Source: Thiothrix sp.
Lineage (GTDB): Bacteria; Pseudomonadota; Gammaproteobacteria; Thiotrichales; Thiotrichaceae
Assembly: GCA_020442915.1 (NCBI GenBank)
Contig: JAGRJD010000001.1
Span: forward strand, 62,001-126,000
Direction of reading: 5' to 3'
DNA: 64,000 nucleotides
Positions 1,241-57,144 of this stretch are shown here, in pieces. A program made the translations under genes and the position numbers. A model generated the notes under the pieces. It searched no databases, was not told where the DNA came from, and was given only the letters and a program-made list of their open reading frames with translations. How positions within the stretch are numbered: position 1 is the stretch's first letter; every line of letters starts with the position of its first letter.

Positions 1241-1573
1241 TCAGCACCCACCACTGCTCCAGTCGGCCACAACTTGGTAATCAAGACCGCCGGCAGGACC
1301 ATGCTCCCACTCCACAGCCAGTGTGCACTGTTCCCGACCGGGATTGCAGCCGGCAGCCGGCAGGCGTGAGATTCTGGCGCTGCCATAGCGGCGTTTGCTG
1401 AACTCCAGCCGGGCACTCCGAAACACCATGCAGCTGCCCGGTGCAGACAGGCTGACGGTATCGACACCCTTGCCACCGGAACTGTTGTTGTGCTGAAAGC
1501 TGGCTGTGGCAGCATGGGCAACCCCCAGATTCAATATCAGGGTACCCAGCAGTATGATGATCCCTTTTTTCAT
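1241..1573 (-). CDS. Small secreted cysteine-containing protein, unknown function
   Basis: A 110-residue protein beginning MKKGIIILLGTLILNLG with a clear signal peptide ending near AHA (about residue 20). The mature part of about 90 residues has four cysteines, one of them the final residue, which suggests two disulfides in a periplasmic or extracellular protein. No known domain is recognised. The ATG at 1573 is preferred over an earlier in-frame ATG at 1609 because it begins a typical signal peptide. It starts 10 bases after the histidine kinase stop codon, so it is probably the third gene of that operon and may be a sensed, accessory or output protein of the system. Confidence 0.65.
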   Translation of the reverse strand: MKKGIIILLGTLILNLGVAHAATASFQHNNSSGGKGVDTVSLSAPGSCMVFRSARLEFSKRRYGSARISRLPAAGCNPGREQCTLAVEWEHGPAGGLDYQVVADWSSGGC

Positions 1574-1583
1574 GATTTTATCC

Positions 1584-3677
1584 TCATTTTTTACGGGTTC
1601 CGGCCACACCGTTCAGGCGGCCTCCGGATTGTGCCAGGGTCATGGAATCCCCCTGGCCGGCAGCAACTGGCAGGTAAACGGTCACTGAGGTGCCCTGCCC
1701 ATCGGACGAAACGGCCAGTTCAGCCTGGATTTTTTTCGCCCGGTACTGCATGTTTTTCAGGCCGTTTCCACCCGGCCTTTCATCAACAAAACCTTTTCCA
1801 TTATCACGAATTTCTATCTTGATTCGATTACTCCTGCCGGGCTGGAGTTCCGTGCCAGCCGACAGACTGACCCGCTCACTGCCGGAATGCTTGACCGCAT
1901 TGGTGACCGCTTCCTGCAGGATGCGCAACAGGTTGAGCGCTCGCTCCGGTCCGAAATCAGCCACCTGTGGCAGTTCATCCACCGCCCATTCCAGCTCCAT
2001 GCCACAGGCATCCAGCACCGCACTGATCCGGGTCCGGAACATGCCCAGCATGGCGGACAGGTCGGTACTGGCATTGCCGAGGGAATCAATCATCAGCCGC
2101 AGGTCATTCAGGGCATTGCGGGCTGAGTCCCGGAGCTGCTCCCGGTCAATGCTGGCGGTATCCAGCTGGCGCAGCATGCTGGTCAGATAAACACCAATGC
2201 CGTCATGCATGTCACGCATGATGCGGGAACGCTCGTTCAACAGCACTTCACGCTGCTCGAACTGGCGGATGGTTTCATAGCTTTCGGCGATCCGGCGTCC
2301 GCGCTCGGCCACCCGCTGCTCCAGCTCCTGGTTCAGGGTCAGCAGCTTGCGGTTATAGGTTTCCGTGGCCTGCAGCGAGCTGACAAAACGGCGCAGCAGA
2401 ATCCAGGTGAAAGACAGCATCAGCACCGGGGCACCAAAATGCAGAAACATGCCGTTGACCTGAGAACGCCAGCCCATCTGTACCGTAAAATCATAACTGG
2501 CAAAAATGAAGATCACTGCAATCGCGAGCACCAGTGCATACAGCTCCCGGCTGGCGTACTGCTGTCCGATCTTGTGCAGAATGAACAGCAGCACATAGGC
2601 ACCGTATACCAGCAATACCGGATTCCAGACATAAAGCACCACCAGATAGGCATACGTCCTGGGCAGGACCAGGCACAGCAGCACCACCGGCACCCCGATC
2701 ATCAGCATCAGGCGCTCCACCTGCGGGTGGGCCTCATGCAGAAAACGGTGCACGAACATTACCCCCAGAAACACGAAACCGCTCAGGCTGAGCATCATCA
2801 GCCAGTCCCAGTAAAACACCGGCAGCGGGATGTCCACCACGAACTGGTCCATGGCATTCACGGCCCAGCACAGGCTGGCCAGCGCGAACAGCCCGTATTC
2901 GGTCTCCCTGCGGCGGTAGAACCACAGCACGCCGATAAACAGGGAGATCACCAGCAGCGACAGTGCAATGGCACGCGGTATTTCATGGCGGAAAATACCG
3001 TGCTCATGATAAGCCGCTTCCAGCACCTCGATCGGTGCCAGATACAGCTTGTCCAGAAAACCACGGGGCACAGGTTCGGCCACCACGTAAACATCAATCC
3101 AGTTCCGGCCTTCACGCAGCAGACCCGCCGGAATGGAAAACAGCATCGGACGGGTGGCATTACGGGCCACCGGCTGCTCGAAACTGCCGCCCCAGCCCAA
3201 CAGCACATCGTTCAGGAATACAGCGGCATTGCTGTTGATGGCGGGCAGGTACAGGCCGTACAGCACCGGCTGATTCCCGCCCAGGTCCAGGGAGATACGG
3301 TAAAGACCACGCCCCGACATGAGTTCGGGAAAACTGTCTGTCCGGGTGCGCCATTCATGCGGCAGCTGCACCTCCCGCCCCTGTGCCCCGGCCCGGCCCA
3401 GCTGCCGGACACAGTTCAGCAGTTGCGTGGCAATGGGCTCGGGCACGTCACTGGCATAGGCCAGACTGTCACTGATGGAAGGACTGCACACCCCCCCGGA
3501 ATCCGGGTAAAAGGCAGCCTGCTCCAGCACCAGCGCATCATAGGGCTTGAAGCTGATGCCGGTCAGCTGCCAGGCCGCGACCATGACCAGCAACATGCCG
3601 GCCAGCGCCATCAACAGCGGAAACCAGCCACTGACATGAAACGGTCGGGTCAGGACCGTGCGGACACCGGCGGTCAT
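1584..3677 (-). CDS. Sensor histidine kinase with 7TMR-DISM-like sensor region
   Basis: A 697-residue membrane sensor kinase. A transmembrane helix at about residues 20-40 is followed by a periplasmic region of about 190 residues, then a block of seven predicted helices at roughly 235-425, the architecture of 7TMR-DISM receptors. A coiled linker leads to a HisKA_3 dimerisation domain with phospho-acceptor His491 (motif MRDMHDGIGV), and the ATPase domain has the N box around LLRILQEAVTNAVKH and the G box DNGKGF with GGNGLKNM. It overlaps the response regulator stop by four bases (ATGA), so the two are translationally coupled. The ligand is unknown; the DISM extracellular fold often binds carbohydrates. 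Confidence 0.9.
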   Translation of the reverse strand: MTAGVRTVLTRPFHVSGWFPLLMALAGMLLVMVAAWQLTGISFKPYDALVLEQAAFYPDSGGVCSPSISDSLAYASDVPEPIATQLLNCVRQLGRAGAQGREVQLPHEWRTRTDSFPELMSGRGLYRISLDLGGNQPVLYGLYLPAINSNAAVFLNDVLLGWGGSFEQPVARNATRPMLFSIPAGLLREGRNWIDVYVVAEPVPRGFLDKLYLAPIEVLEAAYHEHGIFRHEIPRAIALSLLVISLFIGVLWFYRRRETEYGLFALASLCWAVNAMDQFVVDIPLPVFYWDWLMMLSLSGFVFLGVMFVHRFLHEAHPQVERLMLMIGVPVVLLCLVLPRTYAYLVVLYVWNPVLLVYGAYVLLFILHKIGQQYASRELYALVLAIAVIFIFASYDFTVQMGWRSQVNGMFLHFGAPVLMLSFTWILLRRFVSSLQATETYNRKLLTLNQELEQRVAERGRRIAESYETIRQFEQREVLLNERSRIMRDMHDGIGVYLTSMLRQLDTASIDREQLRDSARNALNDLRLMIDSLGNASTDLSAMLGMFRTRISAVLDACGMELEWAVDELPQVADFGPERALNLLRILQEAVTNAVKHSGSERVSLSAGTELQPGRSNRIKIEIRDNGKGFVDERPGGNGLKNMQYRAKKIQAELAVSSDGQGTSVTVYLPVAAGQGDSMTLAQSGGRLNGVAGTRKK

Positions 3678-4639
3678 ATCCGGTCCAGCATGGCCTTCAG
3701 GGCCGCTTCATGGCTGATGCCGGCATTGAGCATGTGTTCCACCACCTGCCGATCCTGCAGCTGGAAACACTGGCAGGCCATGGCAAAAATATCACTGACC
3801 GGCACTTCCAGCTGATGCAGCAGCTCAATACCGGCTTCCAGCTCCATGCCATAGGCCAGTTTCAGTACGTCCATGACCTCAATGGCAGACTTGTCGCCCA
3901 GCAGCAGCGATTCGGCAATCTGGCGCGCATTCTTCTGCGAGCTGGCAGCACCGCCCTGCTGGCGCATGGTGAGCTGCCCCATGCGCCAGCCTTCATAGAC
4001 GGCCTCATTACGCGAATTCACTTCCAGCTTGCGGTAGATGCGCTTGATGTGGGAAGCCACGGTGTGCGGGGAAATGTCCAGCGAACGGGCAATCTCCTTG
4101 TTGGAGTAACCGCGGGAAATGTACTGCAGCACCATTTTTTCCTTGGGAGTCAGCAGGTTGTCTGAATCACCCCCGTCCGGGGAGACGGCAGCCTCGGTCA
4201 CATCCTCATGCTGAAAGTAATCCAGGATATAGCGTGCAATGGCCGGGCTGATGGGGGAGCCGCCCTGCAGCAACTGCTCGACCGCACTCAGGATATGCTC
4301 ATGGGACTCGTCCTTGAGCAGGTAGCCACCGGCACCGGCCTTGATGGCCTCCACCACGCTGTTTTCGTCGCCAAAGCGTGAAATAACCATGATTTCCGCC
4401 CGCGGATGCAGCTGCCGGGTCTGTTCGATCAGCTGCTTGCCATTGCCGTCCGGCAACCCCAGGTCCGTGAGCAGTACATCCGGTGCCTGCTGCTCCAGCC
4501 ATGCGGACGCCTCGGAAAATGTCCCGGCCATCCCGACAACCTCCAGCTCAGGAGCCTGTGCCAGAATAGCAGCGAGACGTTGCAGGGTCGGGGTATCATC
4601 TTCTACCAGGAAAACCCGTTGCTTCCGTTTGTTCATCAT
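3674..4639 (-). CDS. LuxR/NarL-family response regulator with extra C-terminal domain
   Basis: Partner of the adjacent kinase. Residues 7-125 form a receiver domain with phospho-acceptor Asp59 (LLTDLGLPDG) and conserved Lys109. Residues 163-220 are a LuxR-type helix-turn-helix (TPKEKMVLQYISRGYSNKEI). NarL-family regulators normally stop near residue 215; this one continues to 321 with a helical extension at about 231-321 that I cannot assign. Two adjacent ATG codons follow AAGGTG; the first is used here. It is divergent from the first DUF4360-like gene, and two TCCC/GGGA palindromes lie between them, so it is the best candidate activator of the DUF4360 genes and perhaps of its own operon. Confidence 0.9.
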   Translation of the reverse strand: MMNKRKQRVFLVEDDTPTLQRLAAILAQAPELEVVGMAGTFSEASAWLEQQAPDVLLTDLGLPDGNGKQLIEQTRQLHPRAEIMVISRFGDENSVVEAIKAGAGGYLLKDESHEHILSAVEQLLQGGSPISPAIARYILDYFQHEDVTEAAVSPDGGDSDNLLTPKEKMVLQYISRGYSNKEIARSLDISPHTVASHIKRIYRKLEVNSRNEAVYEGWRMGQLTMRQQGGAASSQKNARQIAESLLLGDKSAIEVMDVLKLAYGMELEAGIELLHQLEVPVSDIFAMACQCFQLQDRQVVEHMLNAGISHEAALKAMLDRI

Positions 4640-4706: not shown

Positions 4707-4722
4707 TCCCTCAAATCAGGGA
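4707..4722. promoter_or_regulatory. Candidate response-regulator box 1 (TCCCTCAAATCAGGGA)
   Basis: A perfect inverted repeat TCCCT-N6-AGGGA in the divergent region between the response regulator and the first DUF4360-like gene. It lies exactly 50 bases upstream of a similar box, about five helical turns, which suits cooperative binding. Assignment to the neighbouring LuxR-type regulator is inferred. Confidence 0.5.
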
Positions 4723-4756: not shown

Positions 4757-4794
4757 TCCCTCAAACAGGGGAGCCGGTTTTTCAGCACAATACC
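4757..4794 (+). promoter_or_regulatory. Promoter of DUF4360-like gene 1 with box TCCCTCAAACAGGGGA
   Basis: Box 4757-4772 is followed after 16 bases by a weak -10 (AATACC, 4789-4794). The right half of the box occupies the -35 slot, which is typical of an activator-dependent promoter. The same arrangement and spacing recur at 6314-6351, and the following stretch CATCTACGGGAT is identical in both. The conservation of box, spacing and leader supports a duplicated functional promoter. Confidence 0.5.
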
Positions 4795-4899
4795 CATCTA
4801 CGGGATACCGTCCGGCGGCCCTGGCTGGCAAGATGGATTCCACGATGACGACACACAAGACGCCATCTCCACCAAAACTCACCAATCGAGGGACTGACC

Positions 4900-5478
4900 A
4901 TGAAAACGTTCGCCACAGCCATCGCCGCCGCCGTTCTGGGTTTCGGACTCAATACTGCCGCCCATGCCGATTCAGTGTACTTCAAGAATCCGATCAATTT
5001 CGCCGGTACCGGTTGCCCGGCCAACTCAATCGCCGTCAGCGGTGCCAATAGCGCCACCCTGAGCATCCTGTTCGACCAGTACGACGCCGGCAACAACTCC
5101 ATCACCGGCCTGAACCGTTCCGCCTGCAGCTTCGCGGTACCGGTGCACGTGCCACAAGGCATGCAGGTTTCAATCATGACCGCCGACTGGCAGGGCTTCG
5201 CCCAGGGCCGTACCCAGCTGAGCCGCAAATACTTCTTTGCCGGTGCACCGGCCCAGCCCTGGCTGCGCAACAACTACAACTCCGGTGGTGGCCGCGACTT
5301 CCTGGAGCGTGACAACCTGATCCACAGCACCACCACCTGGGCCCCCTGTGGCCGTGATGTCCAGCTGCGCATCAACAGCAACATCCGTACCCTGGGGGGC
5401 AACAGCTACATGGCGGTGGATACTGTCGACCTGCAGAACCGGGTGGTGTTCCGGGTTCAATGGAGGAACTGCCGCTGA
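4900..5478 (+). CDS. Secreted DUF4360-like protein, paralogue 1
   Basis: A 192-residue exported protein with a signal peptide ending near AAHA (residue 22). The mature part matches the pattern of the DUF4360 family: GTGCPANSIAV near the start, a central FAVPVHVPQG segment, SRKYFFAGAP, WAPCG and a C-terminal VQWRNC. Its paired Cys in these conserved segments would suit disulfides in a secreted beta-rich fold. The function of the family is not established. It is the first of three tandem paralogues, preceded by the boxed promoter and followed by a strong hairpin terminator. Confidence 0.85.
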   Translation: MKTFATAIAAAVLGFGLNTAAHADSVYFKNPINFAGTGCPANSIAVSGANSATLSILFDQYDAGNNSITGLNRSACSFAVPVHVPQGMQVSIMTADWQGFAQGRTQLSRKYFFAGAPAQPWLRNNYNSGGGRDFLERDNLIHSTTTWAPCGRDVQLRINSNIRTLGGNSYMAVDTVDLQNRVVFRVQWRNCR

Positions 5479-5546
5479 GCGCCTCCCGTCTGCAGACCCG
5501 TTCCGGCAGCCTCCTCCCGGCCCCAAACCGTGCCGGAACGGTTCAG

Positions 5547-5591
5547 GGCTTATCCCCGGCCAGTACACCTGACCGGGGATAAGCCTTTTCC
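5547..5591 (+). terminator. Rho-independent terminator after DUF4360-like gene 1
   Basis: A perfect 13-bp stem (5547-5559 with 5573-5585, arm GGCTTATCCCCGG) with a 13-base loop is followed by CTTTTCC-type sequence. It lies between paralogues 1 and 2. Paralogue 2 has no recognisable promoter box of its own, so partial read-through could set its level. Confidence 0.7.
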
Positions 5592-5656
5592 GGCGGCCCC
5601 CACCGCCCGCCGTTTCATTACCCGCCGAATCCATCGGCCTGCAAAGGACGACGACC

Positions 5657-6286
5657 ATGAAAACCCCGACGCACCGTCTATCTGCTTTTCTGCTGGGTGC
5701 CCTGCTCAGCATGCTGTCCCCCCTGGCACCCGCCACGGAGAATCCTGCCACCGGCAACAGCGACCGCATCCATTTCAAGGGGCTGCTGGCCATGGCCGGT
5801 ACCGGCTGCCCGGCCAATACACCCGAGCCCAGCGGTGTCGGCACTACCGACCTGGAACTCCGCTTCAGGCACTATGATGCCGGCAAGGGCTCCGGAACCG
5901 ACCTTGAGCGCAGCGCCTGCAGCTTTGCCCTCCCGGTACACGTGCCACAAGGTATGCAGGTTTCGGTCATGACCACGGACTGGGTGGTCTATGTCCGGGG
6001 CAAGGCACAGCTGAGCCGCAAATACTTCTTTGCCGGCGCCCCGGAACAACCCTGGCAGCGCAATGACTATGACAGCGCCCGGGGAGAATACTTCACCGAA
6101 CACGACACCCCGCTCACGGCAACCGCTGCCTGGACCCCCTGCGGGCAGGATGTCACCCTGCGCATCAACAGCAATATCCGGGTACGCAACAGCGACAGTT
6201 ACATTGCCGTCCACCCGGTCGGCAGCAGCATCCCCCCGGATCAGGGACGCATCCGCTTCACCCTGATGGCCCGGGCCTGCCAGTGA
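5657..6286 (+). CDS. Secreted DUF4360-like protein, paralogue 2 (divergent copy)
   Basis: A 209-residue exported protein with a signal peptide of about 26 residues (LLGALLSMLSPLAPA). The mature part keeps the family landmarks: AGTGCPAN, SFALPVHVPQGMQVSVM, SRKYFFAGAP, WTPCGQDVTLRINSN and a C-terminal Cys. It is the most diverged of the three copies, particularly in its N-terminal third and its last 25 residues, where the VDTVDL segment of the others is replaced by a different sequence. The start follows AAGGACGA. No TCCC/GGGA box precedes it; expression probably depends on read-through of the upstream terminator or on an unrecognised promoter. Confidence 0.8.
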   Translation: MKTPTHRLSAFLLGALLSMLSPLAPATENPATGNSDRIHFKGLLAMAGTGCPANTPEPSGVGTTDLELRFRHYDAGKGSGTDLERSACSFALPVHVPQGMQVSVMTTDWVVYVRGKAQLSRKYFFAGAPEQPWQRNDYDSARGEYFTEHDTPLTATAAWTPCGQDVTLRINSNIRVRNSDSYIAVHPVGSSIPPDQGRIRFTLMARACQ

Positions 6287-6313
6287 GCAGGCACAATGGT
6301 TCCCGTACCGTCC

Positions 6314-6351
6314 TCCCCGAAACAGGGGAGGCACATTCAGCCACCGATACT
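6314..6351 (+). promoter_or_regulatory. Promoter of DUF4360-like gene 3 with box TCCCCGAAACAGGGGA
   Basis: The box at 6314-6329 sits inside a longer perfect palindrome CTCCCC-N6-GGGGAG (6313-6330). A -10 (GATACT, 6346-6351) follows after 16 bases, the same spacing as at 4757-4794. The box differs from the upstream copy at two of 16 positions. CATCTACGGGAT follows directly in both promoters, and the leader beyond it shows patchy similarity. Confidence 0.5.
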
Positions 6352-6531
6352 CATCTACGGGATGTTCCGGAACCGGCATCAATGGCAACATGGGTCCCAG
6401 ATGACAGAGAGGCCGGCGAAAAGAACACCGGCTGTCATCCAAACAGAATTGACAGAACGAAACCATTGAGACATGACACAATTGTCAGTCAGCAAATAAC
6501 CATCAAGTTATCAGTTAAAGGAAAACCATCA

Positions 6532-7113
6532 ATGAAAGCTTTAGCCACCGTATTTGCCGCAACTCTGGCTGGTCTGGCCCTGAATGCCCCCGTCTCTGCC
6601 GCCGATTCCGTTTATTTCAAGAATCCGGTCAATTTCGCCGGTACCGGCTGCCCGGCGGGTTCCATCGCCGTCACCGGTGCCAATACCGACACCCTGAGTG
6701 TCCTGTTCGACCAGTATGACGCCGGCAACAACGCCATTACCGGGCTGAGCCGCTCCTCCTGCAACTTCGCGGTCCCGGTACATGTTCCCCAGGGAATGCA
6801 GGTTTCCGTCATGACTGCCGACTGGCAGGGTTTCGCTCAGGGCCGTACCCAGCTGAGCCGCAAATACTTCTTTGCCGGTGCACCGGGCCAGCCCTGGCTG
6901 CGCAATGACTACTATGCCCCGAACGGCAAGGACTTTCTGGAGCGGGATGGCCTGATGCACTCCTCCAGTACCTGGGCACCTTGCGGACAGGACATCCAGC
7001 TGCGCATCAACAGCAACATCCGCACCCTGGGAGGCAGCAGCTACATGGCGGTGGATACGGTTGACCTCAAGAACAAGGTGGTCTTCCAGCTGCAATGGAG
7101 AAACTGCCGCTGA
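6532..7113 (+). CDS. Secreted DUF4360-like protein, paralogue 3
   Basis: A 193-residue exported protein, very similar to paralogue 1 through most of the mature region (SVYFKNPVNFAGTGCPAG, FAVPVHVPQGMQVSVMTADW, WAPCGQDIQLRINSNIRTLG, LQWRNC). The signal peptide ends near VSAA (about residue 23). The start at 6532, after AAAGGAAAA, is chosen because an upstream in-frame ATG at 6283 would put 83 non-signal residues before the signal peptide. It has its own boxed promoter and a terminator downstream, so it is a separate transcription unit under the same apparent control as paralogue 1. Confidence 0.85.
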   Translation: MKALATVFAATLAGLALNAPVSAADSVYFKNPVNFAGTGCPAGSIAVTGANTDTLSVLFDQYDAGNNAITGLSRSSCNFAVPVHVPQGMQVSVMTADWQGFAQGRTQLSRKYFFAGAPGQPWLRNDYYAPNGKDFLERDGLMHSSSTWAPCGQDIQLRINSNIRTLGGSSYMAVDTVDLKNKVVFQLQWRNCR

Positions 7114-7214: not shown

Positions 7215-7246
7215 CCCCGCACGGTTACGCTGTGCGGGGTCTTTTT
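7215..7246 (+). terminator. Rho-independent terminator after DUF4360-like gene 3
   Basis: An 8-bp GC-rich stem (CCCCGCAC with GTGCGGGG) and 9-base loop are followed by TCTTTTTA. It lies between the third DUF4360-like gene and the convergent ppk gene. Confidence 0.8.
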
Positions 7247-12899: not shown

Positions 12900-13252
12900 C
12901 AGTCGAGTTTCCCAAAATCTGCGCTCCCACGCCCGTTGCCACTATAGAAGAGATGAATCCGCATCAGATTGTAATACACCACCCCTGCATCCAGCACTGC
13001 ATGGAGTTTACCCTGTTGCACATTTTTTAATCTCATTCCTGTCACACGTCCACTCAGCACGCAGCTTTTGCAGTCTCCACATCTCAAACTGTTGCGCCCA
13101 CAACTGACGAATTTCAGTCTGGACAGCCAATATAGTACCCACCGGTGATCCCGTTCCACCAGATGCTGGGTTTTTCAGAAGCCTGTACATAACTGCATTC
13201 CAGCCTTTGAACCACCTGAAAAAGTATGCTACGTTATCCGGCCATAACCATA
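12900..13252. other. Intergenic region with a doubtful transposase remnant and the gcv promoter
   Basis: No convincing gene. The minus strand carries an 86-codon frame (12899-13159) whose end reads HAVLDAGVVYYNLMRIH, faintly like the end of a DDE transposase. It lacks upstream catalytic parts and is at best debris. Near the right end, TTGAAC (13207-13212), 17 bases, and TACGTT (13230-13235) could be the promoter of the riboswitch-gcv transcript. Confidence 0.3.
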
Positions 13253-13431
13253 GGACTGACAGGAGAGTGCTGCTCCCGCAGCCGCCGAAGGCGCATTACG
13301 CCCGTAAACGCTCAGGCAAAAGGACTGTCATGACTGTTAACTCTGGAGAGTGGTGCCAGGCACCCACCGAAGGGCAGTAACCGGATTTGCAGGTATGCAT
13401 CCGGGAATCTCTCAGGTAAAACGGACAGAGG
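13253..13431 (+). promoter_or_regulatory. Tandem glycine riboswitch
   Basis: Two consecutive glycine aptamers precede gcvT. Aptamer 1 is closed by TGACAG (13257-13262) pairing with CTGTCA (13325-13330); aptamer 2 by CTCTG (13341-13345) with CAGAG (13426-13430). Each has the conserved GGAGAG entry, a CCGAAGG core and CTCAGG-AAA exit. The double-aptamer form is known to bind glycine and usually to turn on glycine cleavage genes. The 3' strand of the second closing helix touches the base of the following terminator, which is consistent with ligand-dependent antitermination. Confidence 0.95.
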
Positions 13432-13465: not shown

Positions 13466-13489
13466 ATTACCGATTTCCGGAGGATGACA

Positions 13490-56748: not shown

Positions 56749-57144
56749 AGAATAACCTGATCCGGAACCGGTTCTGGAGAGGAAATGGGACGGCACCAGA
56801 AAATCGTGTGAGGCTTCAGCCTTGAACCGAAAGTTCAAGGTGGAACCCGATTCCATGCCATAAGGCTTACCGACTTGCAGTCATGCACACAGGCATGAAA
56901 AACAGATTCCTGGATCAAGTATTAGGCTCAAGGATTTATCCACCCCATCACGGGTTCCCCAGTTCGCCGTCCTTGAGGCCATACTATTACATTCAGGTGC
57001 ATGAGAAAAGTTTTCCGGATGAAAAAGCGTGTAACCTGATAGACAATGCTGGCCATCAGAACCTCACCGCAAAAAAGTTTCATCTGACTACGTGAGTCAG
57101 TTCAACTCATCTAAAGCATGACCCTTCTCCGAAGTATGGCCTGC
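56749..57144. other. Intergenic region without a recognisable gene
   Basis: Contains an 8-bp hairpin (CCTTGAAC with GTTCAAGG, 56820-56840) lacking a T-run and a near-palindrome CCGGAACCGGTTCTGG around 56762. A weak terminator-like hairpin for the convergent ribE gene lies at 57084-57100 (CTGACT/AGTCAG). A 70-codon plus-strand frame at 56883 has no support. Confidence 0.4.

Follow-up and report, generated by a model that had tools for sequence, protein, structure and literature searches.

A predicted two-component regulon of small exported proteins, including a DUF4360 array, in Thiotrichaceae

A 64,000-nucleotide stretch of a Thiothrix sp. genome (the window) carries three tandem genes for exported DUF4360 proteins, divergent from genes for a response regulator (RR), a histidine kinase (HK) and a small exported Cys protein (SSP). 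Comparison with related genomes indicates that this is most probably an autoregulated two-component system whose targets, genes for small exported proteins with a probable place in the surface or matrix, are dispersed over the genome and activated together. The initial annotation had described a tandem trio of exported paralogues facing a regulator–kinase pair that ends in a small secreted Cys protein; both the trio and the three facing genes, all on the reverse strand, were recovered (Table 1). Divergent synteny shared among relatives, a conserved two-element operator with a -10 element at a fixed distance and the co-occurrence of operator and regulator lend strong support to its reading of the region as a regulated secretion locus.

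Table 1. Features of the DUF4360 array, the facing operon and their predicted control elements, in window coordinates
Feature	Position	Strand	Remarks
SSP, small exported Cys protein	1241..1573	-	110 aa, four invariant Cys
Histidine kinase (HK)	1584..3677	-	Extracytoplasmic domain, 7TMR-DISM-like membrane part, HisKA_3, HATPase_c
Response regulator (RR), NarL/LuxR-type	3674..4639	-	Receiver, GerE HTH, C-terminal extension
TATAAA of predicted RR promoter	4683-4678	-	
Putative operator palindrome TCCCTCAAATCAGGGA	4707..4722		67 bp upstream of RR start
Putative distal operator, copy 1, TCCCTCAAACAGGGGA	4757..4772		Centre ~-77.5
Putative proximal operator, copy 1, ATACCCATCTACGGGA	4790..4805		Centre ~-44.5
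-10-like CAAGAT, copy 1	4829..4834	+	Predicted transcription start A4842
DUF4360 copy 1	4900..5478	+	192 aa, signal peptide; PF14273 103.3 bits
17-bp hairpin then TTTT, between copies 1 and 2	5547..5585	+	Inverted repeat
DUF4360 copy 2, diverged	5657..6286	+	209 aa, signal peptide; PF14273 73.6 bits
Putative distal operator, copy 3, TCCCCGAAACAGGGGA	6314..6329		
Putative proximal operator, copy 3, ATACTCATCTACGGGA	6347..6362		
-10-like CAACAT, copy 3	6386..6391	+	Predicted transcription start A6399
DUF4360 copy 3	6532..7113	+	193 aa, signal peptide; PF14273 109.4 bits
Hairpin resembling intrinsic terminator, 3' of copy 3	7215..7239	+	

The DUF4360 array and the facing operon

DUF4360 is a family of exported proteins, known from bacteria and fungi, to which no function has been assigned. 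A profile search placed all three copies above the curated Pfam cut-off for the family (PF14273, 27 bits), so the label 'DUF4360-like' was correct, and every shared motif listed with it was present in the translations. All three ORFs stand, with a changed start for copy 3: homology and the signal peptide place it at ATG 6532 rather than at GTG 6283, where the mechanical ORF opens. Copies 1 and 3 were 78 % identical in alignment, whereas copy 2 was 49 % identical to copy 3 and had a long branch (0.97), in agreement with the annotated pattern of two close copies and a diverged one. The source genome, a 4.08-Mb draft, contained exactly three full DUF4360 copies; a further match, on contig C108, was weak and partial. 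Of the cysteines expected to form the two disulfides of the family, C40, C77 and C192 were invariant among 48 DUF4360 proteins and that of the W-PCG segment was in the consensus. In the tree of these 48 sequences the window copies grouped together (94/80), with copies 1 and 3 joined at 99/87, and separate expansions were seen in other genomes; the triplication is therefore lineage-specific and the arrangement with the regulator older.

The RR and HK genes share 4 nt, and 11 nt separate the end of HK from the start of SSP, a spacing that is tight, as in a single predicted operon. RR matched Response_reg (PF00072, 75 bits) and GerE (PF00196, 71.6 bits), and D14, D15, D59 and K109 were invariant among orthologues, so that both a phospho-acceptor Asp and a GerE helix-turn-helix (HTH) are present. 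Its orthologues were 62–67 % identical, with a nearly invariant HTH. Past the HTH, the protein continues in a conserved extension of some 100 aa (residues ~220–321; 3674–3980, reverse strand), the end of which resembled a UBA-like motif (PF22567) at E 0.011, below the cut-off.

HK orthologues were 46–52 % identical. HisKA_3 (27.6 bits, cut-off 24) and HATPase_c (41.4 bits, cut-off 26.4) were recognized and the phospho-acceptor His, H491, was invariant, and the 7TM region scored 27.6 bits against PF07695 (cut-off 29 bits, E 3.3e-6). The DISMED models of Pfam did not recognize the outer domain, which gave a weak match to GH2 sugar-binding domains (E 0.0018), a likeness that fits the carbohydrate binding proposed for DISMED domains (PMC6107284, PMC8544897). 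SSP had no Pfam or NCBIfam family and no sequence match in the PDB. Its predicted fold bore a weak likeness to H-type lectins, with discoidins, SLL-2 and Helix agglutinins in the top rows at Z 6.0–6.7, which is below a clear match, and the fold search gave no Foldseek hit with E < 0.001. SSP and the RR extension are further parts of the system without a known family.

The divergent neighbour of RR was a DUF4360 gene in all 13 genomes with a contig running past RR (G000, G001, G002, G004, G005, G006, G007, G021, G058, G063, G067, G069 and G026). SSP was scored in these loci only where the contig reaches it, and three genomes whose contig ends within or near RR (G008, G027 and G060) were left out. 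Many family members carry DUF4360 genes without an RR of this kind, and the tie between the two is therefore lineage-specific. In G026 (L150, 8832–9789) RR was more diverged and split over two overlapping frames, by frameshift or assembly error, and the operator was degenerate, yet the palindrome TCCTCGATTTGAGGGA lay upstream of DUF4360. G020 has nine DUF4360 genes at several places (L065, L047) but neither SSP nor a close match to RR, and must therefore regulate them in another way. A contig recorded under the name Candidatus Electrothrix gigas also carried six tandem DUF4360 genes (L036, 6693–10514), in a stretch with no match to RR, HK or SSP of the window; these copies lie near Thiotrichaceae copies in the tree, and transfer or a binning error is therefore possible.

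Operator and promoter architecture

Copies 1 and 3, and not copy 2, are preceded by paired 16-bp elements with centres 33 bp apart, a putative operator that the initial annotation had not recorded. Relatives share the pair, the best form of which is TCCCCTATTTAAGGGA followed by a right half-site AAGGGAT, and the two-element pattern had only two matches in the whole source genome, upstream of copies 1 and 3. Copy 2, with no operator upstream of its own gene, lies behind the hairpin at 5547–5585, a probable terminator or attenuator; its expression would therefore need read-through or an unrecognized promoter, and the evidence for direct control is confined to copies 1 and 3. The operator can also be absent from single DUF4360 copies of other genomes (e.g. 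G005 copy 3 and L042).

Promoters of 20 DUF4360 and three LysM genes were aligned on anchors chosen by eye, blind to the -10 element. In 23 of 23, a CATTAT-like hexamer, with A as its second and T as its sixth base, lay at an offset of exactly 24–29 from the end of the proximal element, and most had a C–A step at 36/37, which is probably the transcription start. On this basis the proximal element is centred near -44.5 and the distal element near -77.5. G067 and G069, obtained once the pattern was fixed, had the same layout. A sigma-70 consensus scan recognized no promoter, a result that would be expected of activator-dependent promoters yet is uninformative. In most genomes the RR promoter combined the palindrome with a TATAAA-like -10 element at or near the distance found at DUF4360 promoters, which suggests that the RR operon is autoregulated.

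Co-occurrence of operator and regulator and the candidate regulon

Across 76 genomes, the palindrome TCCCYYRWWYRRGGGA was counted 31 times among the 15 that have SSP and four times among the 61 that do not, the motif having been refined on the same genomes as were counted, except G067 and G069; the reversed pattern, used as a control, gave five sites in each group. By genome, the palindrome was present in 11 of 15 and four of 61, respectively (Fisher p = 2.6e-7, uncorrected for relatedness). All 10 strict sites of relatives that do not precede DUF4360 genes had a signal-peptide gene 60–160 bp downstream, where the strict form of the motif was picked after the sites had been seen and signal peptides were called by a simple hydrophobicity rule; the background was 1.75 % for random and 8 % for intergenic positions.

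In the source genome itself, a GC-richer form of the element (TCCCCTGTTCAGGGGA) was located upstream of genes for an exported LysM protein (C79), an exported beta/gamma-crystallin (C129) and an exported 158-aa protein (C138). The crystallin had a 68 % identical relative in G006 with a site 98 bp upstream, and relatives of the 158-aa protein in G004 and G006 had a site about 110 bp upstream; the relative in G001 had no site upstream. LysM proteins of G004, G006 and G007 were preceded by the two-element form. Further palindromes of the source genome were considered and rejected as regulon members: those on C3, C6, C76, C126, C146 and C162 were degenerate and had no exported gene downstream, and those at C4:11834 and C124:3243 were closer to the motif but had no convincing exported gene downstream.

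Co-occurrence and promoter geometry together point to binding of the palindromes by RR. In the proposed mechanism, the extracytoplasmic domain of HK would sense a cue from outside the cell or from the envelope, perhaps a glycan, and HK, judging from the domains, would phosphorylate the NarL-type RR. Dimers of RR would recognize the conserved 16-bp inverted repeats TCCC(C/T)(C/T)A(A/T)(A/T)T(A/G)(A/G)GGGA, two dimers being placed near -77.5 and -44.5, some three helical turns apart, and would bring RNA polymerase to DUF4360 promoters that are weak by themselves; the geometry is observed, and activation is its probable meaning. A further site, the palindrome before RR, would drive the regulator operon. 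As the same element precedes genes for other small exported proteins elsewhere in the genome, the output would be a group of surface or matrix proteins that are exported in concert. SSP may, speculatively, belong to this output, or be a feedback partner of the sensor.

Two other readings of the operator were weighed. The palindromes might be bound by a different transcription factor, with the two-component genes as neighbours that are themselves targets. The motif is off the NarL consensus by a one-base shift, binding by RR is a prediction from sequence, and G003 (67 % complete) has a site with neither SSP nor RR detected. Another factor is nonetheless rather improbable, as the sites are found mainly in genomes that have the system and in most of them lie upstream of RR itself, the RR HTH is almost invariant, and the length, dyad symmetry and position of the element suit a NarL-family dimer. 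Even less probable is that RR acts as a repressor from which the cue lifts repression. NarL-family regulators can do both, and NarL represses frdA (PMC4549865), but the elements lie upstream of the -10 element at a fixed distance typical of activators (~-44.5) and not over the start, and the promoters are without a sigma-70 consensus.

E. coli NarL binds as a dimer to inverted heptamers in 7-2-7 arrays, with a site at -40 to -49 at napF (PMC4549865). RR and NarL both combine a receiver with a GerE HTH, and the operators share the 16-bp inverted repeat and a proximal site near -44, as at napF. The NarL half-site TACYYMT in 7-2-7 arrangement was not found here; the 16-bp dyad has TCCCCTA-like half-sites in place of TACCCCT, with the C run one base further out, and the operator is therefore NarL-like but not that of NarL. 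RR further differs in its C-terminal extension, the type of its kinase and its targets. HK resembles 7TMR-DISM proteins (RetS, LadS, NicD and RgsP) in joining an extracytoplasmic sandwich-like domain to a 7TM-like part and a signalling module, and carbohydrate sensing has been proposed for them, as it is, tentatively, for HK here; it differs in that it is of the HisKA_3 type and shares an operon with a NarL-type RR of its own, and in having an outer domain that the Pfam DISMED models do not match. NarL-type two-component systems controlling exported proteins are a known kind. No description of this RR, operator, target set or SSP was found in the literature searched, and a search combining 7TMR-DISM, LuxR, secreted and response regulator gave no match.

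Possible role of the exported proteins

The structural model of DUF4360 copy 3 (pLDDT 86.4) had its best match in 8OKH, Bdellovibrio Bd1399 (Foldseek E 7.2e-8; Z 11.9 over 152 residues), with the next match at Z 8.5. Below 8OKH came CBM61, CBM16, CBM4 and CBM35 (Foldseek), CBM27 (Z 8.1) and other jelly rolls; at Z 7–8 a beta-sandwich will match many folds. Copy 3 alone gave no match in the PDB with phmmer; the family profile found 8OKH, with three of the four family cysteines aligned. Bd1399 (with Bd2850 and Bd2851) shares with DUF4360 an exported, elongated beta-sandwich, and differs in sequence (16–18 % identity in structural alignments) and in its predation context; the available portion of its description mentions no link to a comparable regulator. 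In the proposed reading DUF4360 is a disulfide-locked beta-sandwich that would probably bind a polymer such as a glycan, the binding being the weakest step of the argument. Taken with the weak likenesses of the HK outer domain to GH2 and of SSP to lectins, the fold speaks for a role in the surface or matrix in which glycans take part, each step being one of resemblance only.

The initial annotation had suggested a surface, matrix or competition function. Surface or matrix is the part favoured by the folds and by the LysM and crystallin genes, and no pointer to competition was found. The proteins could still be effectors against other organisms, in competition or predation, rather than parts of a surface or matrix: Bd1399 was found to be upregulated in predation and required for it, and related fungal proteins are secreted (PMC10792529), the fungal members being termed candidate effectors (PMC10792529, PMC10949477); the paralogues have also expanded lineage by lineage. 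This is unlikely, though less so than the two alternatives for the operator, given that immunity genes, toxin domains and dedicated secretion genes are absent from the immediate surroundings of the array and that its predicted co-regulated partners are genes for LysM, crystallin and further small exported proteins. The surface or matrix reading can be narrowed, tentatively, to an undescribed Thiotrichaceae regulon in which a glycan-sensing 7TMR kinase and a NarL-like RR may deploy exported glycan-binding-like proteins (DUF4360, LysM, crystallin and the lectin-like SSP) that build or modify the surface or matrix; in this narrow form it is possible but less likely than not.

For DUF4360, the analysis predicts which regulator acts on the genes, through which operator, where transcription starts and which other genes share this control. 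If the regulon is real, it offers a handle on the cue and on the action of DUF4360 at the cell surface, and if the glycan reading holds, the family acquires a defined regulatory and functional context.

Two RNA features were noted elsewhere in the window: a pair of tandem glycine riboswitch aptamers at 13250–13430 (forward strand), directly before a gcvT-like gene at 13484, and a 6S RNA gene at 56789–56968 (reverse strand).
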